Shown here one piece after another: positions 5,320-52,050 of a stretch of DNA of 64,000 nucleotides. The stretch is from Enhydrobacter aerosaccus. GTDB lineage: Bacteria > Pseudomonadota > Alphaproteobacteria > Reyranellales > Reyranellaceae. The stretch is from positions 1 to 64,000 of the forward strand of contig CAIWTJ010000272.1 in assembly GCA_903915535.1 (NCBI GenBank), read 5' to 3'. Each line of letters begins with the position of its first letter. Position 1 is the stretch's first letter. The position numbers and the translations under genes were made by a program. A model generated the notes under the pieces. The model searched no databases. It was not told where the DNA came from and worked only from the letters and a program-made list of their open reading frames with translations.

Positions 5320-6588
5320 TCAGGCCGTTTTTCGCCGCCCAGTCCCCACCGGAGTCCCCACCGGAACCGAACGGCGTTCGCGCACGGTCGACCGGCGGGC
5401 CGTCGCCTTCTTGACGGCGCTGGCGATCTCCGTAGCCGCCAGCTGGATATAGAGATCCGTGGTCGCCGGATCCTGATGGCGGGCGGCACCCTTGGCGGCC
5501 GACTGCTGGACCTTCGCCACCTCCGTAATCATGCGCGCCCGCACGTCGTGGAAGCGGTGCGGGTTGGCGACGCCGGCGGCCTTGCCTGAGTGCTTCCACG
5601 ACCGGCGGATCGACTTCAGCGGCCGCCAGACGCCGGCGGGCACCTTGCGGCCGACCATGAACGCATGACGGTGGACCGGGCCAGGCCAAGTGATCAGGTG
5701 GTCGACTCCGCGGGCGATCGCCTGCCGCTCGAGCCGGCGCAGCAGCTGCCAGCCGGCGTCGCCGCCGAACGCGAGTTCGTCGTTCCCGCTCTTTGTCTCG
5801 CCGGCGGCAAAGCGCAGGCCGCGGGCGTCGCGATCGACATGGCGCCGGCGCACGGTGAGCGCTTCGGTGAGGCGCAGGCCGAACAGGCGCGCGAGCTCGG
5901 CCGTCTCGACGGTCCAGGGCGGCGCGACGGCCAGGCGCGCGTTCAGCTCCCGATCGGGGATCGGCCGCGGCAGGCGGCGCGGCAGGCGATGCAAGACGAT
6001 CTCGGGCACGCGCTCCACGGCCGGCCGGCCCGTTTCCGGATCCCGCACCTTCTCGGCGATCGTGAACAGCCGGCGCAGAATCTTGAGATACTTGTTCGTG
6101 GTCGCCTTCGATCGGGGCTTGCCGGTCGATCGCCAGTGCTTGGGGTCGGCCGGATCCTCGACGTCGCCCATTTTCACGCCGGGCCCGGCCGCCCAAGTCT
6201 TGAGGATCTGCGCGTCGCTATAGGCGCGATAGGCGGCGGTTTCGGTGTCGCCGATCTCCGACATGGGCGTGCCTGCCCCGAAGTACGTCACGAGCTCGGC
6301 GGCATAGGTCCGCAGGTTGCCGCCGTGCGACCAGTGACGGCCGACCGATCTCTGCAGCAGAACGGCCGTCGCCTGTGTGATCGTGAAGGCACCCGCGCGC
6401 GCGCTGGATCGGCCGCGCCGGCGCTTCGCGGCCTCCCTCGCGCTGTTCTCGATTTCTCGGGCTTCGGTTTTCGATCGTGCAGGCTTGTTCGTAGCCGGAT
6501 CCAGGCACTGGCGATGATGGCGCACGCCGGCCAGCTGAAACTCATAGAACCAGGCGCCGCCCCTGTCCTTTCGTCGATACACGGTCAT
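5320..6588 (-). CDS. Prophage tyrosine recombinase (integrase)
   Basis: 422 aa; LFGLRLTEALTVRRRHV, HDVRARMITEVAK, TTDLYIQ catalytic-domain motifs; adjacent to attL. Confidence 0.9.
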   Translation of the reverse strand: MTVYRRKDRGGAWFYEFQLAGVRHHRQCLDPATNKPARSKTEAREIENSAREAAKRRRGRSSARAGAFTITQATAVLLQRSVGRHWSHGGNLRTYAAELVTYFGAGTPMSEIGDTETAAYRAYSDAQILKTWAAGPGVKMGDVEDPADPKHWRSTGKPRSKATTNKYLKILRRLFTIAEKVRDPETGRPAVERVPEIVLHRLPRRLPRPIPDRELNARLAVAPPWTVETAELARLFGLRLTEALTVRRRHVDRDARGLRFAAGETKSGNDELAFGGDAGWQLLRRLERQAIARGVDHLITWPGPVHRHAFMVGRKVPAGVWRPLKSIRRSWKHSGKAAGVANPHRFHDVRARMITEVAKVQQSAAKGAARHQDPATTDLYIQLAATEIASAVKKATARRSTVRERRSVPVGTPVGTGRRKTA

Positions 6589-6664
6589 GGCGGCGACCCT
6601 ATCCGCCGGCGCCGTCGATCGACAAGGTCGCAGGGTCCGGAAAGGTCGGCGGCGATTCCGCTCT

Positions 6665-7018
6665 TTAGACGGGAATGCCCCATGCGCGCAGCTGCGCCAG
6701 CGCTTCGTCGTGGGCCGGATTGGGCGCCCGCCGGCGGCCGGGTTTCGCCTGGCCGGGCTGATCCCGATCGTCGTCGGCCGCGGCGCCGATCGCGCGACGG
6801 CGTTTGTAGGCTCGCAGCGAGCCCAGATCGACGCGCACCCCGCCGCGGATCTCGCCCAAGCCGACGCGATGGCCCGACAGCTTCTTTCGCCGCAGCAGCT
6901 TGCGGATCATCGACTGATCGCAGCCCAGTATCCGCGCGGCTTCCTCGACGGTCACGGCGTCGTCGTCGCGCCGCTGGGCGGCGACTTCGGCAGGCGTGAG
7001 GGCGAGGCGCAGGGTCAT
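6665..7018 (-). CDS. Helix-turn-helix DNA-binding protein (excisionase-like)
   Basis: VTVEEAARILGCDQSMIRKLLRRKKLSGHRVGLGEIRGGVRVDL; ATGA overlap with next gene. Confidence 0.55.
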   Translation of the reverse strand: MTLRLALTPAEVAAQRRDDDAVTVEEAARILGCDQSMIRKLLRRKKLSGHRVGLGEIRGGVRVDLGSLRAYKRRRAIGAAADDDRDQPGQAKPGRRRAPNPAHDEALAQLRAWGIPV

Positions 7019-7314
7019 GCCGGCGTGCGCCTCTTGAGGGTGAGAATGGCGCGCGAGATCGCCGCGGCCCTGTCCTTCTTCGTCGCCGGATGCTTCGCCC
7101 GCAATTTCCACAAGGACTCGAGCACCGACAACATGGTGCCGGCGCAATGAAGCGGCTCCTCGGTGAGCATGTGATAGGGGCGACCCGCTGCCAGGGCTTC
7201 CGCGATCATGTGAAGATGCCGCGATGCCGGGCAGGTGTTCGTCGGAAATCGCCGGATCCGATTTACTCGTCGGCGCAGGTTCCGCAGATAGCGGGCTTCC
7301 TCTGCCGGCGTCAT
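7015..7314 (-). CDS. Hypothetical phage protein
   Basis: 99 aa ORF in a tightly overlapping leftward operon. Confidence 0.6.
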   Translation of the reverse strand: MTPAEEARYLRNLRRRVNRIRRFPTNTCPASRHLHMIAEALAAGRPYHMLTEEPLHCAGTMLSVLESLWKLRAKHPATKKDRAAAISRAILTLKRRTPA

Positions 7315-7541
7315 GAGCCAGGCCTCGGCGGCAAGGGCGGTATCGGTGCCTTCCCCTCGAGCACGCGAAGTCGCTCGAGCGCGTCGGCCGCGGCCGTCGC
7401 AATGTCGGCGAACAATCGGCCGAGACTGTCGTCGGAAAACACCCGGTCGGCGTCGCCGCGAATGACGGCGATTCGGACGCTCGGCAAGACTTCCGCGATC
7501 GCGCGCAGTGTCGGGATGCTGAAAGCGTCCTGATCGCTCAT
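7311..7541 (-). CDS. Hypothetical phage protein
   Basis: MSDQDAFSIPTLRAIAEVLPS...; 4-nt overlaps with both neighbours. Confidence 0.55.
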   Translation of the reverse strand: MSDQDAFSIPTLRAIAEVLPSVRIAVIRGDADRVFSDDSLGRLFADIATAAADALERLRVLEGKAPIPPLPPRPGS

Positions 7542-8305
7542 AGCAGCACCTGCTGCACCGGCTCGGCCGCCGGCGGCGCCGGCGAACGGCGTTCGGTGTC
7601 GCCGCGGATCCGGCGCAGGATCTCGCGCGGGCTCACGAGCTCGACGTCGGGCCGGGCCTTGATCTCGGCGACCTTGCCGACGGGCACGTCGTAATGCGGC
7701 CAGCGGCCGCGGTGGAACCATCGGCGATTGATGCCGAGCTCGGCCGCCATGCCGTGCAGCCCGTCGATCGAATAGGGGATGCAGATCAGGTGCCGTTTCT
7801 CGTCGACCAGGAAGCGCGGCGCCGTCGCGCCCCCGGCCGCCTCGAGCGGCTGGCCGTCGACCAGGCTCGCCGCCCAGCGCAGGATCCGGTCGGCCGCGAC
7901 GTCTCGAGCGCCGTCCCAGTGGCCCGGATAGTCGGGCCCGGCGCCGCGCTCGGCCGCGTGGAAACTCACTTGGCCGCTCGGCAGGTCGACGTACAGCACG
8001 AACCGGTGATGCGGCTGCTCGCGATCCTCGCCCCAGCCCCAGCGCGAGATCTCGAGCTCGACCGAGTGCTCGAGCAGTAGCTGGGCGATGTTGCCCATGG
8101 CCCAGCCCTTCACGTCGTAAGCGCCGCCGCGGTGCCGCCGGGCCCGATAGCGCTTGGCGCGCGTGCTCGTCTTGCAGGCGCGCAGCAGGTTGGCGGCGAT
8201 CGCGCCGGCGGGGCCGATCGCCTCGAGGCGCTGATACAGCGCCCGCGTCGCGTCGCCGTCGGATCCGCGGTAGACTGTAAGGAGCTCGAGCAGGGTCGGG
8301 CTCAT
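7538..8305 (-). CDS. Hypothetical protein with DUF4031-like C-terminal segment
   Basis: SIDGLHGMAAELGINRRWFHRGRWPHYDVPVGKVAEIKA. Confidence 0.55.
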   Translation of the reverse strand: MSPTLLELLTVYRGSDGDATRALYQRLEAIGPAGAIAANLLRACKTSTRAKRYRARRHRGGAYDVKGWAMGNIAQLLLEHSVELEISRWGWGEDREQPHHRFVLYVDLPSGQVSFHAAERGAGPDYPGHWDGARDVAADRILRWAASLVDGQPLEAAGGATAPRFLVDEKRHLICIPYSIDGLHGMAAELGINRRWFHRGRWPHYDVPVGKVAEIKARPDVELVSPREILRRIRGDTERRSPAPPAAEPVQQVLL

Positions 8306-8568
8306 TGCAGTGCCCCGCCCTGGCGCACGGCCGCGGCGATCGCCTCGTCGATCTTCGGCCCATAGGGAACCGTTATCTGTCGATCGAGACGGGGCCGACG
8401 GATGCCGCAGGTAAAGACGGCCTCGCTGCTGTAGAGCGTACACTCCAAGTCTTTGTGAATTATCGTCATCGGACCCGGGATGCCGTTCTCGGCCATCGCG
8501 GCGACGACTTCGGCTTCGGCGCTGCAGATCCGTTTCATCGCAGATTGAACGAGCGTGCGTTTGATCAT
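8302..8568 (-). CDS. Hypothetical phage protein
   Basis: MIKRTLVQSAMKRICSAEAEVVAAM...; overlapping operon. Confidence 0.55.
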   Translation of the reverse strand: MIKRTLVQSAMKRICSAEAEVVAAMAENGIPGPMTIIHKDLECTLYSSEAVFTCGIRRPRLDRQITVPYGPKIDEAIAAAVRQGGALQ

Positions 8569-9419
8569 GAGCCGCGCCCTGGCACGTACAGTGCGCGCGG
8601 CTTGCCCTGGCCGAGTCTCACGCGCAGATATTTGTCGGTTTCGCAGAGAATGTTCGGCACGTCGCTGAAATCCATCCCGACGCCCGTTTCCCGTTCGACG
8701 ATCTTGTAAATCGCGCGCATTTCCATGAGTGCCGGCGTCTGGCCGAGCGGATGGTCGACGGTGCGGCCGTGGATCCTGTTCAGGCCGCGTAGCGTGCCAG
8801 GCCCTGCCGCCGCCCATGAGCCGACGTCGGGCGCGGCCTCGAGGATCGGCGTAAAGCGCATGTCGACGACGGCCTGATAGGCCATGAACATGCCCCAACC
8901 GTTCGAGGCGGTAATCCATTCATGGACGCGGCGCAGCGAGACGTTCCACGTCGGAAAGTGCTCGCGCCGGCGCCAGAGGGCGCCGATCACCGTCTCGGCG
9001 ATATAGCTTTGCTTGTCGGCGCCCTTGGTCGCCGGTGCCGAGATCATGTAGGCGCCGGTGTAGACCTTGTCGCCGCGTGCCTTCCGGGTGTTCAGGATGG
9101 CCGTCATGGACGCCGGCGCGAACGTCTCGTCGAGCGGCCAGGCCTGCTCGGCGATCAGCTCGGCCAGGGTGTCGGGCCAATTGATCTGTCGGGCGATGCA
9201 GAGCATGAGCCAGAGATACGGATGGCCGGCGAAGCGCTCTCGTATGTTCTCGCGGATCCAGAGGGTGCCGCGATCGTCCTCCCGCCGCACGTTGCAGAAT
9301 CGATAAGTGCCGATCACCTCGTCGGCGGTCCAGGGGTGCGGCTCGCCGGCGTCTTTGCGCCGGCGCACCTCCTCGCGTTCCTTGATCCACTGCCAGAGCG
9401 GCGAATAGTCGGGTGTCAT
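8565..9419 (-). CDS. Putative DNA base hypermodification protein (HMUDK_hel / alpha-glutamyl-putrescinyl-thymine pyrophosphorylase family)
   Basis: LWQWIKEREEVRRRKDAGEPHPWTADEVIGTYRFCNVRREDDRGTLWIRENIRERF matches the recalled family signature. Confidence 0.7.
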   Translation of the reverse strand: MTPDYSPLWQWIKEREEVRRRKDAGEPHPWTADEVIGTYRFCNVRREDDRGTLWIRENIRERFAGHPYLWLMLCIARQINWPDTLAELIAEQAWPLDETFAPASMTAILNTRKARGDKVYTGAYMISAPATKGADKQSYIAETVIGALWRRREHFPTWNVSLRRVHEWITASNGWGMFMAYQAVVDMRFTPILEAAPDVGSWAAAGPGTLRGLNRIHGRTVDHPLGQTPALMEMRAIYKIVERETGVGMDFSDVPNILCETDKYLRVRLGQGKPRALYVPGRGS

Positions 9420-9766
9420 GACCGCGCCCCGCGCTGCGGCCTGCACGCGCTGCAGAGGTTCAGGCCGATCCATGAACAGCCGCCAGGGCACGCGCAATCG
9501 TCGGTGCAGCCGCAGTCGTGGCAATAGCGTTTAGCGGCCTCGAGCGCGCCGGGCGCCGTGAGATGCAAGTGCTCGACGGTTCCTTTCCTCGTCTTGTACG
9601 GGCTTGGCTGCTGTACCGAGTCGACCAGGCCGCCCCGGCGCAGGCGATCGGCGACGCCTGGGTTGATCTCCTGGCGGGGTTTGGGGCCGGCCAGGAGCGA
9701 TCGTAGCGCCGCTCGAGTTGCTGCGGTGAGCGGGTGCGGCCTCACGGCGAACACGTTCGTTGTCAT
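9416..9766 (-). CDS. Hypothetical protein with cysteine-rich C-terminus
   Basis: CHDCGCTDDCACPGGCSWIGLNLCSAC. Confidence 0.5.
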   Translation of the reverse strand: MTTNVFAVRPHPLTAATRAALRSLLAGPKPRQEINPGVADRLRRGGLVDSVQQPSPYKTRKGTVEHLHLTAPGALEAAKRYCHDCGCTDDCACPGGCSWIGLNLCSACRPQRGARS

Positions 9767-9963
9767 ATCAGCCCTTTCTCCTTCGCCAGCCATTGCGGCA
9801 TGGTCACGGTGACGTTCTCGCCCTCGCCGGCGTCGACCGGCGCGAGCTCTATCTGCGATCGCGGCAGCCACTCGCGCTTGAGACCGTCGAACAGCCAGAT
9901 CGCTTTCTCGCGGGTGCCGACGATCGTCCCGAAGATCTCGACGGGTTCACGATCGCCGCTCAT
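9763..9963 (-). CDS. Hypothetical phage protein
   Basis: 66 aa ORF, 4-nt overlaps. Confidence 0.5.
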   Translation of the reverse strand: MSGDREPVEIFGTIVGTREKAIWLFDGLKREWLPRSQIELAPVDAGEGENVTVTMPQWLAKEKGLI

Positions 9964-10928
9964 GTCGGCATCGCCCGGTGCTCGAGGCCGTCGAGCATGG
10001 CGCCGGCGGCCTTCTTGCCGAAGCGCTCGAGCAGAGTGACCTGCGGCCGGCGCGTGTTCGGTATGGCGAGAAAGGCGCTGTCGCCGAACGGCGTCGTCGT
10101 CTGCACGAGTTCGCCCCAATGGATTTCAAATTCCCGGTGCCACGCGCGCGCCGCGCCGGGTCCCCATTCGCCCCATTGCTTGAAAAAGAATGGCGTACCG
10201 GGATGCTCGACGTTCTCGTTCGACCATTGGCACTGCAGCGCCAGCGATCGAATCCAGTCCGGATGCGAGGGCCTGGCCTTCGGTCCCGACTCGCCGCCGG
10301 CGATCACCCAGTCGATCTTTCCGCAGGGCATCGTCGCGCTCGGCTCGGGCGAGTCGTGATAGCGGGTGCCCGTCAGGGCGTCGATAAAGTGGTGCCCGGT
10401 GCAAATCGCCGTGAGATCCACCGGCCCGAGCAGCGGCTCACAGGACAGGAAACGCACTCTTGCGGGGACGTCGATCAGCTGCGGCACGCGCAGATCGGCC
10501 ATAGCCTGCGACTCGACCGACGTCCCGAGCCAGACGTTCACCGGCATGTCGAGCTCGGCCCAGTGCTTGCCGGCCAGGTGCGGCCGCTTGGTGAGCAGCA
10601 GCCAGTCGATCGCCGGCGTCGCCCGGATCAGCTCGACGAAGTCTCGGCGCCAGGCGGCGTCGACTTCGGCGTCGAACGGGTCGCAGAGGCTCGGGAATAC
10701 CTTCGCCCGAACGCCGTTCGCTTCGGCCTTGCGGTTCCAGGCGATCGGCTGGCGCCAGTAGCTCGAGCTCGTGCGGTGCCGCGGTGCGCCAGTGGCAAAC
10801 TCGGCCCAGCCGTAGCGGTGCGCCATGTCGGCGGCATAGCAATTGTCGCAGCCGGGCGAGATCTTGGTGCAGCCGATCCACGGATTAAACGTGTGATCGG
10901 TCCATTCGATCTTTGAGCGCTCAGCCAT
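9960..10928 (-). CDS. DUF5131 / phage Gp37-Gp68 family (radical-SAM-related)
   Basis: SKIEWTDHTFNPWIGCTKISPGCDNCYAADMAHRYG ... WVIAGGESGPKARP. Confidence 0.85.
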   Translation of the reverse strand: MAERSKIEWTDHTFNPWIGCTKISPGCDNCYAADMAHRYGWAEFATGAPRHRTSSSYWRQPIAWNRKAEANGVRAKVFPSLCDPFDAEVDAAWRRDFVELIRATPAIDWLLLTKRPHLAGKHWAELDMPVNVWLGTSVESQAMADLRVPQLIDVPARVRFLSCEPLLGPVDLTAICTGHHFIDALTGTRYHDSPEPSATMPCGKIDWVIAGGESGPKARPSHPDWIRSLALQCQWSNENVEHPGTPFFFKQWGEWGPGAARAWHREFEIHWGELVQTTTPFGDSAFLAIPNTRRPQVTLLERFGKKAAGAMLDGLEHRAMPT

Positions 10929-11202
10929 GACCGGGCTCCCCATGGATCTCGCCGGCCTGTTGCTTTACCGACTCCCAATTGTCGGCCACGGCCTTGATGA
11001 GATCCCGTCGGCAGCTGTCGATAATCTCCTGCGCGTGCGCGGGCGTGGTGGCGCAGAACGCGATCGTCACGGCCAGGCTGTCGATCTGCGCGCAGAGAAT
11101 CGTTCCCGTCTTGCCGCCGGCGCAGGCCAATTGAATCGCCTGAAAGTAGCGCTCCCGATCGGGATCGTTCGGGCTGCTCGGAAGGTGGATCGTGAGGGCC
11201 AT
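10921..11202 (-). CDS. Hypothetical phage protein
   Basis: 93 aa ORF in operon. Confidence 0.5.
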   Translation of the reverse strand: MALTIHLPSSPNDPDRERYFQAIQLACAGGKTGTILCAQIDSLAVTIAFCATTPAHAQEIIDSCRRDLIKAVADNWESVKQQAGEIHGEPGHG

Positions 11203-11205
11203 GGC

Positions 11206-11748
11206 TCAGCTCCCCGCCCAGCCGGCCGGCAGCTCGAAAAATCCCTGCGCGCCCTTTACAGCCGGTGCGGGATTGATCACCTGCACGCCGCTCAGCAGCC
11301 AGGCCCAGCGGCCCTCCGAATAGTCGCCCCAGTCGTCGTATTGAACGTCGAGGCTGTAGTGCTCGGGCTTGCTCGTGAGCCGGCGCACTGTTCGGGCGGT
11401 GGTGGCGTTCTTGGGCGGCCCGAGCTGAAACGCGGCCTCGAGCACGGCGGTACACACGACGGCGCCGATCGGCATCATGGACATGCCGAAGCGGCCGAGC
11501 AGCTCCTCGGGCGTCCGGTTGAACGTCGCGGCCACCGTGTCGGCGAGATCGAATCCGCCCTGCTTGTGCTGGCCGTACAGGATCTCTTGCGCGAATTGCG
11601 CCGCGCCCTTGTCTATCTTCTTGGCCGCGTGGATCGCTATTCGCTGGCCGATGTAATCGGACGGCGGCGCCCAGCTGCGCGTCTCGTAGGGCTTGGCGCT
11701 GCAGGCAATGAGCGAGGCCCACGGCTGCCAGAGTGATATCGCTTTCAC
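11206..11748 (-). CDS. ASCH-domain protein
   Basis: MKAISLWQPWASLIACSAKPYETRSWAPPSDYIGQRIAIHAAKK. Confidence 0.75.
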   Translation of the reverse strand: MKAISLWQPWASLIACSAKPYETRSWAPPSDYIGQRIAIHAAKKIDKGAAQFAQEILYGQHKQGGFDLADTVAATFNRTPEELLGRFGMSMMPIGAVVCTAVLEAAFQLGPPKNATTARTVRRLTSKPEHYSLDVQYDDWGDYSEGRWAWLLSGVQVINPAPAVKGAQGFFELPAGWAGS

Positions 11749-12053
11749 GTCGTTTCCCCCTTTGGTGAATGAAAGATGATCCAGGCGGCATTCGCCCGGG
11801 TGCGTTCGGCGCCCTTGCCGCCGGTGCTTTCGCTCGGCAGCAGGTCGGCGACGCGCTCGCCTTTGGCGTCGAGGATCCGGATCACCGACGGCCCGACGCC
11901 CTCGAACAGCCGGCCGAGCTCCTGAATCGTCCAGGGCCCGGGCGCGACGGTGTCGATCGCCGGCGGCGCTTGCACCGGTGCCGGCGCGGCTGGCCGCGGC
12001 GGCTTGTAGGGCTCCTCGGGCGCCTCGAGGCCCGGGATCTGGGCGCCGCTCAT
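11745..12053 (-). CDS. Hypothetical phage protein
   Basis: Proline-rich N-terminus, overlapping operon. Confidence 0.5.
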   Translation of the reverse strand: MSGAQIPGLEAPEEPYKPPRPAAPAPVQAPPAIDTVAPGPWTIQELGRLFEGVGPSVIRILDAKGERVADLLPSESTGGKGAERTRANAAWIIFHSPKGETT

Positions 12054-12442
12054 ACGTCGAACCTCGCCCGGAACGCCGCCGTGATCGCCTCGCGGAAACC
12101 GGGCTGCGGCTCGTCGACGGCGATCGCGGTCTCTTTCACCGTGTAGCTCTTGGCCTGCTCGACAACCTTGTAAGGCCACCAACGCCGCGCCTCGACCCAT
12201 GCGGCCTTGAGCATGCGCGGCGTGATCTGCCAGTCGGCCTTGTCGTCGTGCTGATAGCCGGCCAGCCGCAGCGCCTCCTCGAGATCGGCCGAGAAAGCGG
12301 CGTCGACGGCGCGCCGGCGCTGGGCGTATTCCCAGAGCAGATCCTGCGCCGCCGGATCCTTGCAGCTGAGCGGGACCTTGCCGCGTGGCGTCGTCGGATA
12401 CTTGTCCGACTGAAACTCGCCGTCGATCAGGTGCTCGGCCAT
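12050..12442 (-). CDS. Hypothetical phage protein
   Basis: MAEHLIDGEFQSDKYPTTPRGKVPLSCKDPAAQDLLWEYAQRRR. Confidence 0.55.
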   Translation of the reverse strand: MAEHLIDGEFQSDKYPTTPRGKVPLSCKDPAAQDLLWEYAQRRRAVDAAFSADLEEALRLAGYQHDDKADWQITPRMLKAAWVEARRWWPYKVVEQAKSYTVKETAIAVDEPQPGFREAITAAFRARFDV

Positions 12443-13422
12443 TACTCGGCCGCCGGCCCGGCTTCGGCCGGCGCGGCCGTCTCGGCTTTGCTTTCCGCTC
12501 GCATTTTGTCGAGCGCGGCCTTCCATTTGGCATCGCGCTCTGCCTTCTCCTCGTCGCTCAGCACCTCGAGGTGCCAGCGCACGACCTGGCGGCCGATTCC
12601 CGGGTCGAAAGAGTTCTTGTCGATCACGAGAACGGCCTCGCCGAGCTCGGCCTGAAACATCGCGATCAGTCGCGCGCCCTCGGGATACGTCTCGGGATCC
12701 TCGGCGATCGCGTTCTCGTCGATCTTGTCGGACCAGCCGTATTCCTCGTGCACGTCGGCCAGATAGATGCCCGAGCACTTCGCCAGCATCGCCGGCGGGC
12801 TGCGGTGATACATGCCGCTCAGCACGCCCTGCAGCCAGCGCGTCTTGTCCTCGAGGTGTTCGGCGCTATAGGCACCCCATGGCTCTGGGTTCGGCTTTGT
12901 GTAGTCGTAGCCGGTGAGATCGCCGGCAAAGAACACCGGCTTGCCGAGCTGCTCGGCCCACGCGATCTCGCGCGCAGTGCTTTCGCCGACGTAGGGCTTG
13001 CCATCGACCTTGCCGTCGATCACGAGAATCGCGTCGCTGCGCTGGATCTTGGCGAAGTGCACGGCGTCGACCGTCGACTTGCCGATCGGGTTGCCTTCGA
13101 TCAGGGGATTACCGGCCGCGCCGTTGCCGATCGAAAAGACGATGAACCCGAGCGCTGTCAGCTTGGCGTTCCATTCGACAAACTCGCGCCGGAAGCGGCC
13201 GCTGCCGCAGAGCGTGATCTGCAGCACCGCCGGCAGCCCGTCGGCCGTCGGCTCGGCCGGGGCGTGCATCTTCTCGAGCCATGCCCTCACCTCGTCAACC
13301 GACTGCAGGCCCTTGAACGTCTCTTGATCGACGTCGGGCCGCCGGTAGATCGGCGCGTGCATCATCAATTGAAAGGCCGAGCGCCGCGGCGCGGGCTTGG
13401 TCGTGTCTGTCGTGTCGGTCAT
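12442..13422 (-). CDS. Nucleoside 2-deoxyribosyltransferase-like / DUF4406-like protein
   Basis: ITLCGSGRFRREFVEWNAKLTALGFIVF ... AKIQRSDAILVIDGKVDGKPYVGESTAREIAWAEQLGKPVFF. Confidence 0.65.
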   Translation of the reverse strand: MTDTTDTTKPAPRRSAFQLMMHAPIYRRPDVDQETFKGLQSVDEVRAWLEKMHAPAEPTADGLPAVLQITLCGSGRFRREFVEWNAKLTALGFIVFSIGNGAAGNPLIEGNPIGKSTVDAVHFAKIQRSDAILVIDGKVDGKPYVGESTAREIAWAEQLGKPVFFAGDLTGYDYTKPNPEPWGAYSAEHLEDKTRWLQGVLSGMYHRSPPAMLAKCSGIYLADVHEEYGWSDKIDENAIAEDPETYPEGARLIAMFQAELGEAVLVIDKNSFDPGIGRQVVRWHLEVLSDEEKAERDAKWKAALDKMRAESKAETAAPAEAGPAAE

Positions 13423-13441
13423 GTTCTCTCTCCTCTATTGA

Positions 13442-17098: not shown

Positions 17099-17101
17099 GG
17101 T

Positions 17102-17664: not shown

Positions 17665-17748
17665 TTGAAATGCGCCGCGACGAAAGCGAATACGACGAGG
17701 CCACCAAGGACGACGCCGCCCGCTTGCAGGATGAAGTCGAGCACGGCG

Positions 17749-18036: not shown

Positions 18037-18056
18037 GGATTCTCCCCCGGTAAAAA

Positions 18057-39933: not shown

Positions 39934-39980
39934 GCCTCGGATCGCCGCTCGATCACTGAAACGCACATTCCGGGGATTCC

Positions 39981-40603: not shown

Positions 40604-40610
40604 GTGTCCC

Positions 40611-43561: not shown

Positions 43562-43569
43562 AGGTCGAA

Positions 43570-44676: not shown

Positions 44677-44679
44677 CCC

Positions 44680-45183
44680 ATGGATCCCGACGAGCTGCTG
44701 CGGCTGCGCCTGCAGCTGCTGTTTTCGCGCGGTGTCGTGCGCCAGGCGGACGTCAAGAACGGCCTCGCGAACGTGCAGGCCGAATTCATGAAAAACGAGC
44801 TGCGCCGTGTCGACCTTCCGCAGAGCTACGGCTTCGGATCCGCACCGCTCGCCGGCAGCGAAGTGTTCGCGATCTTCCCCTCGGGCGACCGCAGTTTCGG
44901 TGTCGGCCTCGGATACGACGACCGCGCGCTCAGGCCGAAGGATCTAAAGCCGGGCGAGGTGATCCTGTACGGCCTCGAGGCGCTCACGCGGCCGAACGGG
45001 CATTCGATCCGGTTCACCAGCGACCCGAAGCCGGGCACGGTCAAGATCAACGCGAGCCGTATCGAGCTGCGCGTCGGACAGTATTACGTCCTACTCGACT
45101 CCGACCCGGCGATTGCCATGCAAAAGGGAATCTGGCCCGAGGGCGTGGCCCTGCCTCTCAATCCGCATGGGGACGCGCTATGA
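44680..45183 (+). CDS. Baseplate spike/assembly protein (Mu gp45-like)
   Basis: 167 aa; order between gpP and gp46. Confidence 0.75.
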   Translation: MDPDELLRLRLQLLFSRGVVRQADVKNGLANVQAEFMKNELRRVDLPQSYGFGSAPLAGSEVFAIFPSGDRSFGVGLGYDDRALRPKDLKPGEVILYGLEALTRPNGHSIRFTSDPKPGTVKINASRIELRVGQYYVLLDSDPAIAMQKGIWPEGVALPLNPHGDAL

Positions 45184-45647
45184 GGATCGAGTTCGATCCC
45201 GCCACCGGGTTTTTCGACCTGGCACTGACCGCGCGCGGCGGCGTCGATGCCGGCTATGGCAACGGCGGTGCGCTCGAGGCTGCTGTTTGGGTGTCTCTTT
45301 TCACCGATCTGCTGGCCGATGCCGGCGACATGACGCCGGATCTCGGCGCCGATCGGCGGGGATGGTGGAGCGACGCCCCGCTTCCGGCCGATCACCGCAT
45401 GGGGAGCCTGATCTGGCTGCACATGCGCGAAAAGAAGTCCGAGAAGGTGCGCGCGTCGATCGAGAACGAGGCGACCGCGGCGCTGCAATGGCTGATCGAC
45501 GACGGCCTGGCGACCGCGGTCGACGTCACGGCGGCATGGATCGACGCGCCGCGCGACGCGCTGCGGCTCGTGGTCGTGCTCACCGAACCGAACGGCGTTC
45601 GGCGCGATTGGAAAACAGATCTCGTCTGGGGCGGGATCGCAGGGTGA
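45180..45647 (+). CDS. Mu gp46-like phage protein
   Basis: ALEAAVWVSLFTDLLADAGD...DRRGWWSDAPLPADHRMGSLIWLHMREK. Confidence 0.8.
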   Translation: MRIEFDPATGFFDLALTARGGVDAGYGNGGALEAAVWVSLFTDLLADAGDMTPDLGADRRGWWSDAPLPADHRMGSLIWLHMREKKSEKVRASIENEATAALQWLIDDGLATAVDVTAAWIDAPRDALRLVVVLTEPNGVRRDWKTDLVWGGIAG

Positions 45648-45658
45648 GGAATTGAGCC

Positions 45659-46807
45659 ATGCCGTACGCCCGCCCTGGCCTGGCCGATCTGGCGGCTCGC
45701 ATCGGTGCGAATTATCGCGCCCGCTTTCCCGGCGCCGACACGAACCTGCGGCAGTCGCCCGATCGGGCGCTCGTCGCGGTGATCGCGGGCAGCACCGACG
45801 AGGATCTCGCCTATCTCGACTGGCAAGTGCGGCAACTCTTTCCGTTCTCGGCCGACACCGAATATCTCGAGCGCTGGGCGGCCTTCAAGAACATCTACCG
45901 CAAGGGCGCGGAACAGGGCGCCGGGACCGTGTTGCTGTCCGGAACGACGGGCCTCGTGGCGCCGGCGGGCACCCAGATGCAGACGCAGGACGGTGGCGTG
46001 ACGGTCACGCTGTCGGCCGATGCCGTGGCGGGTGTCGACGGAACCGTTGTGGTCGCGGCCGCGGCAGTGGCCGGCGGTGCCTTCTCTAACATCGGGCCTG
46101 GCGTCACACTGACGTTCATCGGCACGCCGGCGGGATATGCCGACACCGGCAGCGTGCAGGATTCGTTCGCCGGCGGCGCCGATGCCGAGACCGACGCCGA
46201 GTTGCGCCTCCGCACGGCGCAGGCCTATGCGCAGCCGAGTTTCGGCGGCAACCTGAACGACTGGCAGCGGGCGACCCTAGCGGTCCAGGGCGTGACACGC
46301 GTATTCACCGCTCCGGCGTCGCCGACGCCTGGCGCCGTCACGATCTATCCGCTGTTCGACAACGTGCGCACGAACGGAATCCCGGTCGGGACGGACGCCT
46401 ATTTTCGCCCGGGCACCGGTCCATCGTCGGGGATCGCGGGCAACGGCGATCAGCGCCTCGTTCTCGACGCGGTTCTGGCGACGCGTCCGGTGTGCGCGCA
46501 CGTCTGGGTGAAGGCGCTGTCGACTCAGTCGATCGATCTCACGATTTCCGACATGGTCGACGACTCGCCCACGGTGCGGGCAGCTATCTTCACCGAGTTC
46601 TCGAGGATGCTGTTTGCCAAGGCCTCGGTTCAGGCCGTGCCGAACGTTGACGCGGTGGCCTCCGGCTACACGATCTATCTCGAGTGGATCGCCGCGGCGG
46701 TGGCACTGGGCGCCGGCGTCAAGAAATTCAACCTGACTCTGCCCGCCGCGAACGTCGTCGTTCCGCCCGGCACACTCGCGATCCCGGGGGATATCACCTA
46801 TGGCTAA
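45659..46807 (+). CDS. Baseplate J-like protein (Mu gp47)
   Basis: LEEWAAFKNIYRKGAEQGAGTVLLSGTTGLVAPAGTQMQTQDG-type region. Confidence 0.88.
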   Translation: MPYARPGLADLAARIGANYRARFPGADTNLRQSPDRALVAVIAGSTDEDLAYLDWQVRQLFPFSADTEYLERWAAFKNIYRKGAEQGAGTVLLSGTTGLVAPAGTQMQTQDGGVTVTLSADAVAGVDGTVVVAAAAVAGGAFSNIGPGVTLTFIGTPAGYADTGSVQDSFAGGADAETDAELRLRTAQAYAQPSFGGNLNDWQRATLAVQGVTRVFTAPASPTPGAVTIYPLFDNVRTNGIPVGTDAYFRPGTGPSSGIAGNGDQRLVLDAVLATRPVCAHVWVKALSTQSIDLTISDMVDDSPTVRAAIFTEFSRMLFAKASVQAVPNVDAVASGYTIYLEWIAAAVALGAGVKKFNLTLPAANVVVPPGTLAIPGDITYG

Positions 46808-47402
46808 GGCGCCGCGGCCCGAGCTCGCCGACTGGCTGGCGGCGACGATGGATCTGCTGCCGCAGGGCATCGCCTGGCCGCGCGATCCGTCGTCTAACCT
46901 CGGCGGCCTGCTGGGCGTCGTCGCCGGCGAGCGCAAGGTACGCCACGATCGCGCGCTGACTCTGCTCGAGCGCGAGGGCGTCCCGACGACGGCCGTCGAG
47001 CTGCTGCCCGACTGGGAGCAGGCACTCGGCCTGCCGGATCCGTGCCGGCCGCTGCCTGGGTCGCTCGCGGAGCGCTGGGCGGCCGTGGCCGACGTTTTTT
47101 TCGAGTCTCATCCGCCGACGCCCGACAACATGGTGATCTGGGCTCTATCGGCGGGCTGGAATATCACGATCCGCGAGCAGTGCGATTTCGTGGCGGGTGT
47201 GAGCCAGGCCGGCGACGTCGTCGGCGAATCCGATCATGTCTGGGTCGTGACCATCCTCGACCAGGTGATTTCGTATTTTCTCGCCGAGCAGAGCGCCTCT
47301 GAGGATCTGCTGTTTTCGTTTCCCGATATCGAGACGCTCGAGTGCGTGCTGCGCCGCGCTGCGCCGGGTCACACGCAAATTCACTTCATCGTTCCCGTCT
47401 GA
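46800..47402 (+). CDS. Mu gp48-like (DUF2313) tail protein
   Basis: LLPQGIAWPRDPSSNLGGLLGVVAGE; 200 aa, correct order. Confidence 0.82.
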   Translation: MAKAPRPELADWLAATMDLLPQGIAWPRDPSSNLGGLLGVVAGERKVRHDRALTLLEREGVPTTAVELLPDWEQALGLPDPCRPLPGSLAERWAAVADVFFESHPPTPDNMVIWALSAGWNITIREQCDFVAGVSQAGDVVGESDHVWVVTILDQVISYFLAEQSASEDLLFSFPDIETLECVLRRAAPGHTQIHFIVPV

Positions 47403-47409
47403 GGTCCCT

Positions 47410-48201
47410 ATGTATCGCATCGACTCCGCGAACAATGTCCCGGTGTTGCCGGCGCCGGTCGCTGCCGAGGGCGACGCTGGCTATTTCAACAATGCGCCGG
47501 GCGCGGGTCCCGGTACGAAGGTGACCGGCGACTTTCTGAATATGGTTCAGGAGGAGATCGCCAACGTCGTCGAGGGCGCAGGCCTAGAGCTCGACCGCAC
47601 CAATCGCGCCCAGCTTCTCGCCGCGCTCCGGCGTTTGAACACCATGCCGACCGGTTTCCGTGGCGCCACAACGCTGACAACGGCGCCGGACGGGTGGATC
47701 CTGGCAAGCGGCCGCACGGTCGGCCCGACCGGGTCGATTGCGACCGAGCGGGCGAACGACGATACGCTGCCGTTGTTTTCTGCCTATTGGGCGGGCCGTC
47801 CGGATCTTCATCTCTACAATGCTGCCGGCGCGCCGATCGCGCGCGGGGCGTCGGCCGCCGCCGACTGGGCCCTGGCGTGCGTGATTGCGGTTCCTGACAT
47901 GAACGGCCGCGTCGGTGTCGGTCGCGACAACATGAAGGGCGCCGCGGCAAACCGCGTTACTGCCGCCGGCTGCGGTGTCGACGGCACTGTGCTCGGCGGC
48001 GCCGGCGGCGAGCAGACGCACCAGCTGACGGTCCCGGAATTGCCTGCGCATCATCATACCGGCGCCATGACGAACGTCACCGGTGGCTCGTCGGTATCTT
48101 CATCGGGCGCATCCCCGGTCAACACCGGCGACACCGGCGGCGACCAGCCGCATCAAAACATGCCGCCGTTCATTGTCGAAAACATGATCATCAAGCTCTA
48201 G
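47410..48201 (+). CDS. Tail collar/fiber-like protein
   Basis: GGAGGEQTHQLTVPELPAHHHTGAMT ... MPPFIVENMIIKL. Confidence 0.75.
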   Translation: MYRIDSANNVPVLPAPVAAEGDAGYFNNAPGAGPGTKVTGDFLNMVQEEIANVVEGAGLELDRTNRAQLLAALRRLNTMPTGFRGATTLTTAPDGWILASGRTVGPTGSIATERANDDTLPLFSAYWAGRPDLHLYNAAGAPIARGASAAADWALACVIAVPDMNGRVGVGRDNMKGAAANRVTAAGCGVDGTVLGGAGGEQTHQLTVPELPAHHHTGAMTNVTGGSSVSSSGASPVNTGDTGGDQPHQNMPPFIVENMIIKL

Positions 48202-48276
48202 GCGATCGCGCCGTGGCGAACGATCGCCGGCGTTGTGCCGCTAATCGACATTCTTGATCAAGCTCCAGGAGATCTT

Positions 48277-51069
48277 ATGATCCGCTTTGCCCGAACGGCG
48301 TTCGCCGCCGCTTTTGCTTGTCTGCTCCTCGCAGCGGCCGTTCCGGTCGCCGCGCAGGACGGCATCGGCGCACCCCGGGGCCTGACCGCGACCGCGATCT
48401 GCAATGCGCTCGGCCGCTGCCCGGCGACATTGCCGGTCGACGGCACCCAGATCACCGGCCTGCAGCTCGACACGATCACGACCCTGAAGGCATGGACTGG
48501 CCGGCCGGCGGTCGTGATCGTCTCTGGTTTCGGCACGTCCAACGATGGGGGCGGCGGTACGTTCATCTGGGCGGCCGGCGATTCGACGGCCTCGGATGGC
48601 TGCACCGTGTTTCAGCCGACGTCGGGCGGCGCTTCCGGCCGTTACAAGCGGCTCTATTCCGGCGCCGTCGACGCGCGTTGGTGCGGCGCAAAGGGTGACG
48701 GCTCGACGAACGACGGTGCGGCCCTTGCCTTGGCCGTGGCCGCGCCTCCCGTTGGGGGCGTCGTCTACCTACCTCCGACGGCCAGCTGCTACAGGATCAC
48801 GGCGCCGCTCGTCGTCTCGCGTGCGCTCACCTTGCACGGCCGCAATTCGGAGATCTGCCAGGCCACCGCGAACACTGCGGGCCTGTCGGTAACGGCCAGC
48901 AACGTCAAGATCGACGGCCTCAAGCTCACCGGCCCGTCGCCGTCGACGTTCCAGACCGGCTCTATCGCGCTTGCCGTGAGCGGCACCTTCAATGCCGGCC
49001 TCGCTCCGGTCTACATCTCCAAAGTCACCGTCACGAACACGTCGATCGACCGCTGGAACGGCTACGGGATCGTCGCGAGCTACGTCGATCAATTCGAGGC
49101 CAGCAACAATCGCGTCACGAATGTCGTCTATGGCGGCATCGTCGTGCTCTCAGGCACGAACGGGCGCATTGCGTCAAACACCGTCGATACGATCAACTGC
49201 AGCGGCACGCCGGGCGGAAACTGCTACGGCATCACCCTGACGCGCCGTACTGACGATTCCGGCGAGCTCGTTTCGCAGCCCCGGACGTCCGACTATGCCG
49301 TCACCGGAAATACCGTTCGCAACGTCCCGACGTGGGAAGCGCTCGATACCCATGCCGGGCAGCGGATCGCGTTCACCGGCAACACGATATCGGGCACCAA
49401 GTCCGGCATCATGGTCGGGACGGCCAACAACGCCTCGTCGGTAGAGACCTACGCCCCGCTGCTGATCACGGTCGCCGGCAACACGATGGATTCCGGCGTG
49501 ACCGACGGGTCCGCGAGTTATGGCATCGTCCTGCAAGGCGCTGATGGCGTCGAATATGCGACGGGGTCTATCTCTGGAAACACCATCAAGGGCTATGGCT
49601 CACAATCGGCCAGCGCGTCTGGCGCAATCTATGTCAGGAATACGGCCGGGGCGTCGATCACCGGTAACTTTGTGGTCAATGCTGCGCCACAGGGGATCGT
49701 GTTCTATCACGACAACGTCGGCTTTTCGGCGACGGGCAATTCGATCGTCGATCCATGGACGAACATCGTCGGTGTCGGCCAGGCGATCGGAATCGACGTC
49801 AACGCCGAAAACAATACCGGCTTTATCGGCGGCAACGCCTTCTCGACCAACGGGTTCTCGGCGACGTATCTGCTGAGTTCGGCCGGCGGTGCGGCAATCC
49901 GGATCGAGGACGTGTCCGGCACTGCGATCCAGCTGGGGCCGAACCGGTCCACGGCGACGATCTACGTCTACGATCAAGGCGCGCGCGCAAGCACGGCGCT
50001 GCTCAAAACCTCGGTGACGGCGATCACCTCGGGCTTGTGGAACGGGACGAAAGTCGCGCAAGCCTACGGCGGCACGAATGCGGATCTGTCGGCGACCGGC
50101 GGCGCATCACAGGTCCTGCGGCAGTCGAGCTCGGGCGCCGCGATCACCGTTAGCCAGCTCGCGGCGAGCGATCTCAGCAACGGCACAAGCGGCTCGGGTG
50201 CGGTATGCCTCGCGACCAGCTGCGCGCTCGTGACGCCGGCACTGGGCACGCCCTCGGCCCTGAACCTGGCCAACGCCACGAATCTGCCTGCGACGTCGCT
50301 CTCGGGAACGACGCTGGCCTCGAGCGTCGTCTCCTCGTCGCTGACGTCGGCCGCCGGCGGCGCCTTCGGATCCAACGCCTTCAATTCGACGGCGTATCTG
50401 CCTCTCGGTGGCGGCACGCTCAGCGGCACGTTGACTGCTGCCGATGGCAGCACATGGTCATCGACCGGCATCAACCATCCCAGCGCGTCGCTGCTGCAAT
50501 GGAACAGCGATACGGTCCTGCAGAGAGACGCCGCGGCGGGTGTCCTGGCTCTGCCGATGGTTGGCGCCGCGCTACAGCAGTTCTTTATCTACAAGAGCGG
50601 CAGCAACGCCGGCACGTACCAGCGGCTGCAGATCGGGAACAATGGCATCTTCACTAACTGGAGCAGCTCTGGTTACGTGTTCGCGTTCGGCAGCGGAACG
50701 ACGCAATGGCAGGTCAGCACCGCTGGCACGCTCACGATGTCGGGCAACTTCAGCGACAACACGGGCTATCTCGATCTCGGCGTCGGTGCCGCCCGATCCC
50801 TCACCGGCTCGAATGCGTCGACCGCGGTCAACGTCGCGCAGACGTGGAACACGAGCGGCAATCCGACCTTGATCAAGGCCAACGTCACGCGAACGGCAGT
50901 CGGATCGAACACGACCGCGAGCCTGATCGATCTGCAGGTCGGCGGCGGGTCGATCTTCCGCGTCGATACGACAGGCGTCGTCTACTCGAACACGACGGCG
51001 GGCGTGACGTGCTCGGGCGCACCGTCGGGCAGCTTCGCGTCGACGAACGGCATCGTCACCCATTGCTGA
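48277..51069 (+). CDS. Right-handed beta-helix (pectate-lyase fold) protein, tailspike-like, with Sec signal peptide
   Basis: MIRFARTAFAAAFACLLLAAAVPVAAQDG then VDARWCGAKGDGSTNDGAAL and parallel beta-helix repeats; RBS aggagatcttATG. Confidence 0.8.
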   Translation: MIRFARTAFAAAFACLLLAAAVPVAAQDGIGAPRGLTATAICNALGRCPATLPVDGTQITGLQLDTITTLKAWTGRPAVVIVSGFGTSNDGGGGTFIWAAGDSTASDGCTVFQPTSGGASGRYKRLYSGAVDARWCGAKGDGSTNDGAALALAVAAPPVGGVVYLPPTASCYRITAPLVVSRALTLHGRNSEICQATANTAGLSVTASNVKIDGLKLTGPSPSTFQTGSIALAVSGTFNAGLAPVYISKVTVTNTSIDRWNGYGIVASYVDQFEASNNRVTNVVYGGIVVLSGTNGRIASNTVDTINCSGTPGGNCYGITLTRRTDDSGELVSQPRTSDYAVTGNTVRNVPTWEALDTHAGQRIAFTGNTISGTKSGIMVGTANNASSVETYAPLLITVAGNTMDSGVTDGSASYGIVLQGADGVEYATGSISGNTIKGYGSQSASASGAIYVRNTAGASITGNFVVNAAPQGIVFYHDNVGFSATGNSIVDPWTNIVGVGQAIGIDVNAENNTGFIGGNAFSTNGFSATYLLSSAGGAAIRIEDVSGTAIQLGPNRSTATIYVYDQGARASTALLKTSVTAITSGLWNGTKVAQAYGGTNADLSATGGASQVLRQSSSGAAITVSQLAASDLSNGTSGSGAVCLATSCALVTPALGTPSALNLANATNLPATSLSGTTLASSVVSSSLTSAAGGAFGSNAFNSTAYLPLGGGTLSGTLTAADGSTWSSTGINHPSASLLQWNSDTVLQRDAAAGVLALPMVGAALQQFFIYKSGSNAGTYQRLQIGNNGIFTNWSSSGYVFAFGSGTTQWQVSTAGTLTMSGNFSDNTGYLDLGVGAARSLTGSNASTAVNVAQTWNTSGNPTLIKANVTRTAVGSNTTASLIDLQVGGGSIFRVDTTGVVYSNTTAGVTCSGAPSGSFASTNGIVTHC

Positions 51070-51077
51070 GGTTTTTC

Positions 51078-51311
51078 ATGCGCACTCTATTGGCAATGGC
51101 AATTATCCTGGCGCTGCCGCGTCTCGTGTTCGCGCAGGAGGTAGCACCGAAGCCGGTGAGCCTCGAATACTACCAGCAGCGTGTCGGCACCTGCGACCTG
51201 CAGGGTGCTCAACTCGCTGCTGAGAACGCCAGTCTCCGGCAGCAGCTCGACCAGCTCAGGAACGCGCCGGCGCCTGCGCCGGTGGCCGCACCCGGAAAGA
51301 ACGGTCCTTAA
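51078..51311 (+). CDS. Small secreted protein
   Basis: Signal peptide MRTLLAMAIILALPRLVFAQ. Confidence 0.5.
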   Translation: MRTLLAMAIILALPRLVFAQEVAPKPVSLEYYQQRVGTCDLQGAQLAAENASLRQQLDQLRNAPAPAPVAAPGKNGP

Positions 51312-51377
51312 TCCGGGCGAAACGGTGCGCGCGATCGCCGATCTCTACTGAGTCAGCAACACCCTCGAGGAGGCATC

Positions 51378-51932
51378 ATGTTCTCGTTCCGAAATCGTGC
51401 GTACGCGTTGGCTTCTGCCGGCGTGCTCGCCGTCGTTCTGGCTGCCGTCGCCGTGCCGGCCTCGGCGCAGCCGCGCATGACCGGTTACGTCGGACCGGAG
51501 ATGGTTTCCGACGTCAAGGCGGCGATCGCCGGCGGCGCCCGGTCGATCGACTTCGGCACCTCCGCCGCGCCGCCGGCGGGCTGGGACGTTCACTCCGGCG
51601 GCCTCGAGACGGCCGGCTGGGCGATCGCCGACGCTCTGCGCGCCGCCGGCGTCAAGGCGCGGTGCGTCGGGTTTTGTGGCTCGGCCATGAGCCAGGCGGT
51701 GATCGCTTCGGGCAATTGCGCGGTGACAGCGAACGGCTTTCTCATGCCGCACCTCGCGTTCGTACCGGGCGGCACGAGCGCACAGAACAGCCTGGCACGG
51801 ACGCTGAGCTCGAGGGCATGGCTCGAGCACGGTATGCCGGCCGATCTCGTCGACAAGCTCGAGCGCTCGCCCGACGACACGATCCGGCTTCGCCCCGAGG
51901 ACATGAAGCGGGTCGGCTGCACGTTCGAGTAA
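51378..51932 (+). CDS. Secreted ClpP/crotonase-fold-like protein
   Basis: Signal peptide then HSGGLETAGWAIADALRAAGVKARCVGFCGSAMSQAVIASGNCAVTANGFLMPHLAFV. Confidence 0.6.
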   Translation: MFSFRNRAYALASAGVLAVVLAAVAVPASAQPRMTGYVGPEMVSDVKAAIAGGARSIDFGTSAAPPAGWDVHSGGLETAGWAIADALRAAGVKARCVGFCGSAMSQAVIASGNCAVTANGFLMPHLAFVPGGTSAQNSLARTLSSRAWLEHGMPADLVDKLERSPDDTIRLRPEDMKRVGCTFE

Positions 51933-51959
51933 CGCGCGACACCCTCTGAGACGATCGAC

Positions 51960-51988
51960 GGCCCGGGCATCCCCCGGGCCTTTCTTTT
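51960..51988 (+). terminator. Rho-independent terminator
   Basis: GGCCCGGG-CATCC-CCCGGGCC-TTTCTTTT. Confidence 0.8.
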
Positions 51989-52050
51989 GCCGAGTCAGAA
52001 ATGCCGAACGCCGTTCGGTAATTCTTCAGCCGTTCGGGAGGATTTCTGGC

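Follow-up and report, generated by a model that had tools for sequence, protein, structure and literature searches.

The 17 copies of the palindrome CGAACG-S-CGTTCG that are spread through a prophage of Enhydrobacter aerosaccus probably form a parS/O_B-like loading array, from which an orphan ParB-CTPase clamp would coat the phage genome. Judged from sequence, the sites are very probably recognised by the prophage's own ParB-like protein, encoded at 15467-17098. Comparison of related loci shows that the site tracks the ParB clade and changes with it, and it can hold its position while surrounding genes diverge.

The window analysed here is the whole stretch of 64,000 nucleotides from assembly GCA_903915535.1 (contig CAIWTJ010000272.1, forward-strand positions 1-64,000). 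It contains a 50.3-kb, att-bounded prophage (5221..55511), framed as follows.

5221..5257, plus strand: left att repeat, 37 bp, prophage end
5320..6588, minus strand: tyrosine integrase gene
55512..55548, plus strand: right att repeat, 37 bp, prophage end, equal to the 5' part of tRNA-Gly

Given these repeats, all of the palindrome copies lie within the prophage.

The palindrome array

The 17 exact copies listed in the first-pass annotation were all recovered, with no extra ones, and no one-mismatch versions of the 13-mer were found. Its statement that the flanks are free of the site extends to the whole host assembly (5.81 Mb, 306 contigs), which holds 0 copies outside the prophage rather than the same density. 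Dinucleotide shuffles gave a mean of 0.03 copies and a maximum of 2, against the actual 17, and synonymous-codon shuffling of the prophage CDSs (2000 runs) gave a mean of 0.17 and a maximum of 2 rather than an expectation near 17, against 13 copies in called CDSs. Among spacer-1 palindromes of the prophage, the runner-up reaches 2 copies. The sites are listed here without strand.

5368..5380: site 1, CGAACGGCGTTCG, inside the integrase gene, whose 3' end is 48 nt away
7583..7595: site 2, 45 nt from the 3' end of gene 7538-8305
10708..10720: site 3, in the DUF5131 gene; position shared with the L134 homologue (48% amino acid identity)
15009..15021: site 4, gene 14620-15156; position shared with L136, L138 and L300 homologues (32-38% amino acid identity)
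17968..17980: site 5, gene 17749-18036; position shared with L132/L133 and L136
18420..18432: site 6, just within the start of ORF 18057-18446, leading gene of the leftward ParB operon
23281..23293: site 7, in a primase-like gene, 27 nt short of its end; position shared with G049, L133, L136 and L138 (39-44% amino acid identity)
24983..24995: site 8, intergenic, ahead of 25015
29264..29276: site 9, at the start of the terminase large-subunit gene
31166..31178: site 10, 40 nt before the terminase gene end; aligned position shared with L107 and L108
34376..34388: site 11, within gene 33989-34519
36162..36174: site 12, intergenic, centre of a perfect inverted repeat following the major head gene
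40103..40115: site 13, within gene 39981-40430
42752..42764: site 14, within gene 42317-43561; position shared with the G049 homologue
45589..45601: site 15, within gene 45180-45647; position shared with the G049 homologue
48292..48304: site 16, at the start of gene 48277-51069
52005..52017: site 17, intergenic, ahead of 52051

The earlier count of 14 genic and 3 intergenic copies holds if ORF 18057-18446 is accepted; the gene caller's shorter start leaves the copy at 18420 outside. All three reading phases are occupied (4, 4 and 5 of the 13 copies in called CDSs), which bears out the earlier claim that a DNA site is conserved and rules out peptide conservation as the cause. The G or C flanks noted before are present at 33 of 34 outer positions, and the central base (G or C) is unrelated to gene strand, the site itself being palindromic. 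Spacing averages about 2.9 kb and is more even than chance: the circular coefficient of variation is 0.38, with 0 of 20000 random placements as even (P about 1e-4), and the largest gap between sites is 4861 bp (P = 5e-5). This evenness persists on a circular phage map. Twelve of the 17 sites are intergenic or at most 70 nt from a gene end, against a background of 29% (P = 4e-4). Whether positions are conserved across homologous genes, a check suggested with the first description of the array, has a positive answer for 7 sites, which occupy exactly homologous positions in the relatives named above, 6 of them in proteins that are 32-51% identical.

Two further candidates were set aside. A host-factor or uptake sequence is ruled out by the 0 copies elsewhere in the host, and an SOS/LexA-like box has a different spacing and likewise has no copies there.

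The ParB-like protein and its relatives

The proposed reader of the sites is encoded in a leftward operon.

15467..17098, minus strand: ParB-like protein, 543 aa; ParB_N CTPase fold at residues 31-120, ParB HTH at 123-209, long C-terminal part
17102..17425, minus strand: small protein adjoining ParB; its homologue adjoins ParB in a sister phage (G017) as well
18057..18446, minus strand: first ORF of the operon

The protein fits the ParB/Noc/KorB CTPase family by its CTPase domain and the HTH that follows it. The N-terminal domain matches PF02195 (E 5e-19; 68.5 bits, cut-off 26.3) and TIGR00180 (98.7 bits, cut-off 58.45), and the HTH matches PF17762 at 22.1 bits, slightly under the cut-off of 22.6, with its helices at a pLDDT of about 95 in the AF2 model. 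Foldseek of this model aligned about 200 Noc residues (TM 0.72-0.76 of target). Matches in the PDB were Spo0J, Noc and KorB, the KorB sequence match being weak, and by fold and HTH the nearest structures are Noc, ParB and KorB. The putative CTP-pocket-type motifs GERRWRA and ENLQREN are also present.

ParABS membership requires a ParA partner and a ParA-binding motif. The motif is absent from 33 of 33 close phage ParBs and from the window ParB, and the genes examined included no recognisable ParA. Partition, moreover, needs few, local sites and not an even genome-wide array, which is what the sites here form. These observations weigh against the idea that the array is a multi-site centromere stabilising an extrachromosomal form of the phage, as does the integration of the element between 37-bp att repeats with an integrase of its own. 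The precedent is the phage-plasmid N15, which likewise has a phage-borne ParB-type protein, SopB, and several sites in one phage genome (IR1-4), but exists as a plasmid prophage, has SopA and uses its four inverted-repeat centromere sites for partition (PMC7205306). We consider a partition role here quite improbable.

Recognition by the ParB-like protein is strongly supported by the distribution of the site. In 192 distinct ParB-bearing viral loci from IMG/VR, most of them found via ParB and thus biased towards it, the 13-mer occurs in 23 of 33 loci whose ParB is close and in 4 of the 159 whose ParB is distant (Fisher P = 4e-18). Searching IMG/VR with one protein found none of the close relatives; a three-protein alignment found them. 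Copies of the 13-mer number 66, where 89 composition-matched control palindromes average 0.11. An unbiased palindrome search near these ParBs returns the identical 13-mer, and as a positive control the same search finds the textbook parS, GTTTCANNTGAAAC, close to chromosomal ParBs; the genome_contigs scan, which gave mostly chromosomal ParBs, served only for this control.

On the ParB tree, a supported clade of 31 proteins (SH-aLRT 99) comprises 23 with CGAACG, 4 with CGCACG, 1 with another form and 3 without a site found, and 33 of the 34 ParBs in its sister group are without a site. The site label changes 5 times versus 19 when shuffled, and 0 of 500 shuffles were as low. Some branches carry variant forms, CGCACG-N-CGTGCG among others, and odd-centred symmetry is kept in CGCACGNCGTGCG (5 and 8 copies), in GCGAACNNNGTTCGC (6 copies) and in CGAATGNCATTCG and CGAACCNGGTTCG (4 copies each). 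No single HTH residue change was found that accounts for the variant sites. What emerges is a short perfect palindrome that co-varies with ParB, as parS-, NBS- and O_B-type sites require.

A site-first check covered a handful of contigs chosen by the site alone. Two of them, G076 (4 sites) and G077 (21 sites), bear such a ParB; in G079 the ParB match is weak and there are only 2 sites, and the short contigs G078, G080 and G081 have no ParB within the fragment. The best-covered phages have 13-21 sites per 48-96 kb (0 for a reversed control pattern), and the arrays of G086 and G077 are also evenly spaced. ParB is the only near-constant gene among the 31 site-bearing loci, which were themselves chosen by ParB. 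Two small integrative islands of sister genomes are dense in sites and are without a full-length ParB. The cultured phages in INPHARED have distant ParBs only, and no clear site was found in the Azospirillum phage-plasmid NZ_CP029360. Another dispersed palindrome, in three copies, occurs in the cultured phages VarioGold and Aval; this observation is suggestive only.

Proposed repressor operators and other possible readers of the site

A different palindrome lies around the repressor gene.

18461..18476, no strand: proposed repressor operator 1, GTCGAAANNTTTCGAC, immediately upstream of the leftward (ParB) operon
18491..18506, no strand: proposed repressor operator 2, a GTCGAAANNTTTCGAC copy
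19403..19981, minus strand: CI-like repressor with S24 peptidase domain
20095..20110, no strand: proposed repressor operator 3, a GTCGAAANNTTTCGAC copy, between the repressor and the rightward early genes

This three-copy palindrome varies among sister phages whose repressors are 46-47% identical (GTCGAAANNTTTCGAC here, TCGCATNNNNATGCGA in G017, CGTTAANNTTAACG in L135), whereas the 13-mer is unchanged. Such separate, changing operators led us to reject the 13-mers as stoperators, at which the immunity repressor would stop transcription across the prophage during lysogeny. Their number and spread do resemble phage L5, which has more than twenty 13-mers genome-wide, and 12 of the 17 sites here lie between genes or near gene ends. 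However, L5 sites are repressor-bound and asymmetric, following the direction of transcription (PMC9283540), while the 13-mer is symmetric and apparently distinct from the proposed operators. A repressor homologue, moreover, is found in only 6 of the 31 site-bearing loci by a crude clustering in which some loci are too short. A stoperator role is very improbable.

Another phage or host protein, such as a small terminase, primase, methyltransferase or host factor, could in principle read the sites. Of 15 phage contigs with a terminase at least 68% identical, 10 have the 13-mer, versus 2 of 15 with a less similar one. Against this, a primase-like gene is found in 14 and a methyltransferase-like gene in 10 of the 31 site-bearing loci, the site follows the ParB tree, and a host factor would find nothing to bind in the chromosome of a host that carries no sites outside the prophage. 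We regard another reader as hardly credible.

A further proposal refines ParB recognition and does not replace it, namely that the ParB-like protein reads the sites and thereby steers packaging, or enzymes that modify bases, towards the phage DNA. A published idea, quoted in PMC6536676, has phage ParB-like proteins guide a modification apparatus to specific sites. The leftward gene cluster of ParB includes a gene (8565-9419, E 3e-45) for a member of the 5-hmdU-DNA-kinase family and one for a DUF5131 protein, of which 9 of the 31 site-bearing loci have a homologue. No homologue of the kinase-like gene, however, turned up in the sister loci that were checked, and none of the modification-type genes is common to most of the 31 loci. 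We consider this refinement unlikely. Among the roles offered in the first-pass annotation, comparative evidence favours sites for the phage ParB-like protein; the stoperator or repressor role falls with the separate, changing operators and the symmetric, mostly genic sites, and organising DNA or guiding its modification are things that a loaded ParB-like protein could do.

Known systems and a possible function

On the 60-kb plasmid RK2 the O_B core, a palindrome of 13 bp centred on S, occurs about a dozen times. Its reader KorB is a ParB-family CTPase clamp that loads at several short palindromes distributed over a single mobile element and acts at a distance by sliding (PMC11790492). The site sequence differs from ours, and the sites of KorB are linked to promoters and function together with KorA, whereas 14 of the 17 sites here are in coding genes at even spacing. 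ParB-parS and Noc-NBS share with the prophage system a CTPase N-domain, a palindrome-reading HTH and a site specificity that co-diverges with the protein; unlike them, the element is an integrated temperate phage with one site about every 2.9 kb along its whole length, and its protein has no ParA-binding motif and a long extra C-terminal part.

By analogy with this family, a ParB dimer would bind each site through its HTH, then close on DNA with CTP and slide off as a clamp; we consider such CTP-dependent spreading fairly likely. The 543-aa protein would be expected to bind CGAACGSCGTTCG, with tight binding to CGAACGGCGTTCG and not to CGCACGCCGTGCG. With a site roughly every 2.9 kb, clamps could extend over the entire phage chromosome. 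The proposed operators directly upstream of the ParB operon suggest that the CI-like repressor keeps it off in lysogeny and that its expression starts together with that of the early lytic genes. A coat may then build up on phage DNA during infection or replication, with possible roles in protecting, organising, marking or regulating that DNA. Whole-genome coating in the lytic phase may be the selected function, a suggestion we make with some reserve.

The even array suggests selection for covering the entire phage genome. We are aware of nothing of this kind in any other ParB, KorB or Noc system, and we found no published description of such an evenly spaced phage-wide array. More speculatively, these phages might constitute an undescribed, large temperate-phage clade with a built-in ParB-clamp coat, loaded at evenly spaced palindromes every few kb, that marks or protects lytic phage DNA, and the small integrative islands of these hosts might display dense sites to pass as phage DNA. 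Orphan phage and prophage proteins with a ParB-CTPase fold are treated in parts of PMC12704722 as common, mostly without a ParA-binding motif and of largely unknown role, and those parts deal with folds and the binding of nucleotides and describe no genome-wide cognate site array for them; a whole clade would now have a defined DNA target. Variant targets that track the protein make binding, CTP switching and spreading directly testable, and the CGAACG/CGCACG pair would serve as a natural specificity switch.

A phage-wide array of one palindrome

An exact recount over the whole window found CGAACGSCGTTCG 17 times, confirming both the number of copies and the coordinates claimed in the first-pass annotation, and a search of the same window found no copies with one mismatch. 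Shuffled DNA is expected to hold 0.03 copies of this 13-mer, and synonymous-codon shuffling that kept all proteins, a codon-aware null which the annotation had proposed, gave a mean of 0.17 copies in CDSs (maximum 2 in 2,000 runs) against 13 observed. The runner-up among palindromes of the same form occurs just twice in the prophage. Sites in coding DNA occupy all three phases, as had been noted, and the outer flanking base is G or C at 33 of 34 site flanks.

The array lies in a temperate prophage of the contractile-tail type, with tail sheath, baseplate, portal, terminase, and integrase genes.

Prophage ends and adjoining DNA
5221: 37-bp repeat
55512: partner repeat, within tRNA-Gly
55733-63998: second integrase immediately 3' of tRNA-Gly, then a gene akin to those of sister-genome islands bearing another ParB type; probably a separate mobile element adjoining the prophage

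Since the prophage runs between these repeats, every site is inside it, and the 5.81-Mb host assembly holds these 17 copies and none elsewhere, in agreement with the claim that the sites are confined to the prophage.

Gaps between sites are far more regular than random (circular-phage CV 0.38; 0 of 20,000 simulations as even), the widest being 4.9 kb (P = 5e-5), and the gap over the joined phage ends falls within the range of the others. Even spacing is also seen in the comparison records G086 (P = 0.0006, using the 16 of 18 positions that were listed) and G077 (P = 0.005); by the same test, evenness was not significant in the many-site phages G083 and G074. Twelve of the 17 sites are intergenic or at gene ends (background, 29%; P = 4e-4), presumably the places where protein constraint is weakest. 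Site 12 is the center of a perfect 35-nt inverted repeat (36151-36185) 3' of the major head gene, which is terminator-like with no clear T run; its 61-nt surroundings have an RNA fold of -39.7 kcal/mol (z -6.0).

The site in related phages and islands

The 13-mer was counted in relatives, as the first-pass annotation had suggested. Among 74 other genomes of the family it is rare, at about the level of the reversed control pattern, but a handful of them contain clusters, which proved to be prophages or integrative islands. A palindrome search without a preset motif ranked the same 13-mer top in most of these clusters.

Site counts in whole records (reversed control pattern, 0 copies in all four)
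G086: 18 sites in 47.8 kb
G087: 17 sites in 53.6 kb
G085: 13 sites in 52.1 kb
G077: 21 sites in 95.7 kb

The idea that positions might be kept across homologous genes holds for seven sites (10708, 15009, 17968, 23281, 31166, 42752, and 45589), which recur at zero displacement in other phages; the homologous proteins are about 70% identical at the terminase site, 31166, and merely 32-51% at the other six. Sites 5368 and 29264 are not kept in position in homologous genes of other phages, and the array therefore turns over.

Two smaller elements also carry the site. A ~6.5-kb island near tuf/ribosomal genes (G011:C1:1106792-1113320; L023/L024) has five, together with an integrase 52% identical to that of the window prophage, a reading frame for a Dam-like methyltransferase, and a 320-codon ORF with a ParB_N domain, and is possibly a satellite, defence island, or prophage remnant. 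The other (G066:C5:274200-280800; L079) has four sites in 4.8 kb; it encodes an integrase and an HK97-type capsid protein and has an HNH-like ORF. No ParB-like gene turned up in the 60 kb examined, and the element is possibly a capsid-encoding satellite or remnant.

A phage ParB as the probable reader

The G017 and G074 prophages encode ParB-like proteins 41% and 39% identical to the window ParB over the matched part. From an alignment of these three proteins (A1), relatives were sought in IMG/VR, giving 192 distinct ParB loci. Of the loci with close ParBs, 23 of 33 carry CGAACGNCGTTCG; of those with distant ParBs, 4 of 159 do (Fisher P = 4e-18). The palindrome has 66 copies in all, against an average of 0.11 across 89 others matched in base composition; as a positive control, the same search finds the known parS, GTTTCANNTGAAAC, near chromosomal ParBs. 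In a tree built on the N-domain and HTH, one ParB clade (SH-aLRT 99) comprises 23 CGAACG, 4 CGCACG, 1 other, and 3 siteless members, and its sister group 33 siteless and 1 other; site labels require 5 changes, versus 19 after shuffling. Together, these sequence comparisons support the earlier suggestion of a ParB site.

Variant sites near related ParBs, which retain symmetry
CGCACGNCGTGCG: L146 and L158
GCGAACNNNGTTCGC: L149
CGAATGNCATTCG: L376
CGAACCNGGTTCG: L345

The recognition-helix region of CGAACG-type ParBs is mostly R-x-V-x-x-R, with an aromatic residue or His after the first Arg; in L302 and L428, distant by overall score and with four site copies each, it ends in FVQQR. Comparing these regions revealed no simple one-residue code explaining the variants.

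Most comparison loci were picked via ParB, a bias counter-checked by a scan by site alone, which yielded contigs new to the comparison. G076 and G077 hold ParBs of the window kind (E 4e-46 and 2e-43), the match in G079 is weak, and the fragments examined of the short contigs G078, G080, and G081 contain no ParB. Crude clustering of 31 site-bearing loci found ParB in 25, a primase-like gene in 14, an integrase in 11, and no near-constant gene other than ParB.

GTGCAGANNTCTGCAC and TGCACANNTGTGCA, dispersed in two cultured phages with distant ParBs (three copies each) and also present in IMG/VR contigs L310, L327, L401, and L448, are perhaps a second ParB-site class, in growable isolates. CAGATTTNAAATCTG, eight copies at 13374-20088 of L347 near a 296-aa ParB-like gene, is a candidate for a further ParB-site pair.

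Dispersed palindromes in cultured phages
VarioGold (L577): 5756, 15561, 29452
Aval (L578): 7663, 13370, 20626

Repressor, expression, and possible function

Leftward cluster and repressor
8565-9419, minus strand: 5-hmdU DNA kinase helical-domain family protein (PF18723, E 3e-45), in the leftward cluster with parB; its sequence hints at thymine hypermodification
15467-17098, minus strand: ParB-like protein, 543 aa
18057-18446: leading gene of the leftward operon that includes parB
19403-19981: CI-like repressor, S24 domain

The repressor is flanked by GTCGAAANNTTTCGAC at 18461, 18491, and 20095, and matching three-copy layouts surround the repressors of G017 (TCGCATNNNNATGCGA) and L135 (CGTTAANNTTAACG), these repressors being 46-47% identical. 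The separate palindromes differ among the three phages, all of which keep the 13-mer; by sequence, this speaks strongly against the repressor as reader of the 13-mer, and makes the stoperator role once offered for it very unlikely. Two of the putative operators, 18461 and 18491, immediately precede the 18057-18446 start, and we therefore infer that the parB operon would be silent in lysogeny and expressed alongside early lytic genes.

The window ParB has a ParB_N domain and an HTH_ParB match slightly below the Pfam cut-off; its nearest NCBIfam matches are Noc and the ParB domain, and its sequence matches in the PDB are Spo0J, ParB, Noc, and, weakly, KorB. The AF2 model (pLDDT ~90 across the N-terminal half) matches Noc best (TM 0.72-0.76 of target), then ParB and KorB. 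The G017 and G074 ParBs (L033 and L035) have an extra N-terminal Cro/CI-type HTH-like segment, which the window ParB is without. The ParA-binding motif described in PMC12704722 is absent from every close phage ParB checked.

A published suggestion, quoted in PMC6536676, is that phage ParB-like proteins guide a modification apparatus to specific sites; that the protein directs DNA modification here is a less likely alternative, to which the kinase-like and DUF5131 genes that share a cluster with parB lend some plausibility. As for clamp loading, KorB is a CTP clamp that slides from O_B (PMC11790492), and by analogy clamps loaded every 2.9 kb could coat the entire phage genome; such coverage, and its purpose, are our inference.

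We found no prior description of such a site array in the open-access literature. The components, ParB and parS, are of a known kind; what is new is the orphan state, the even phage-wide array, and the probable lytic setting.
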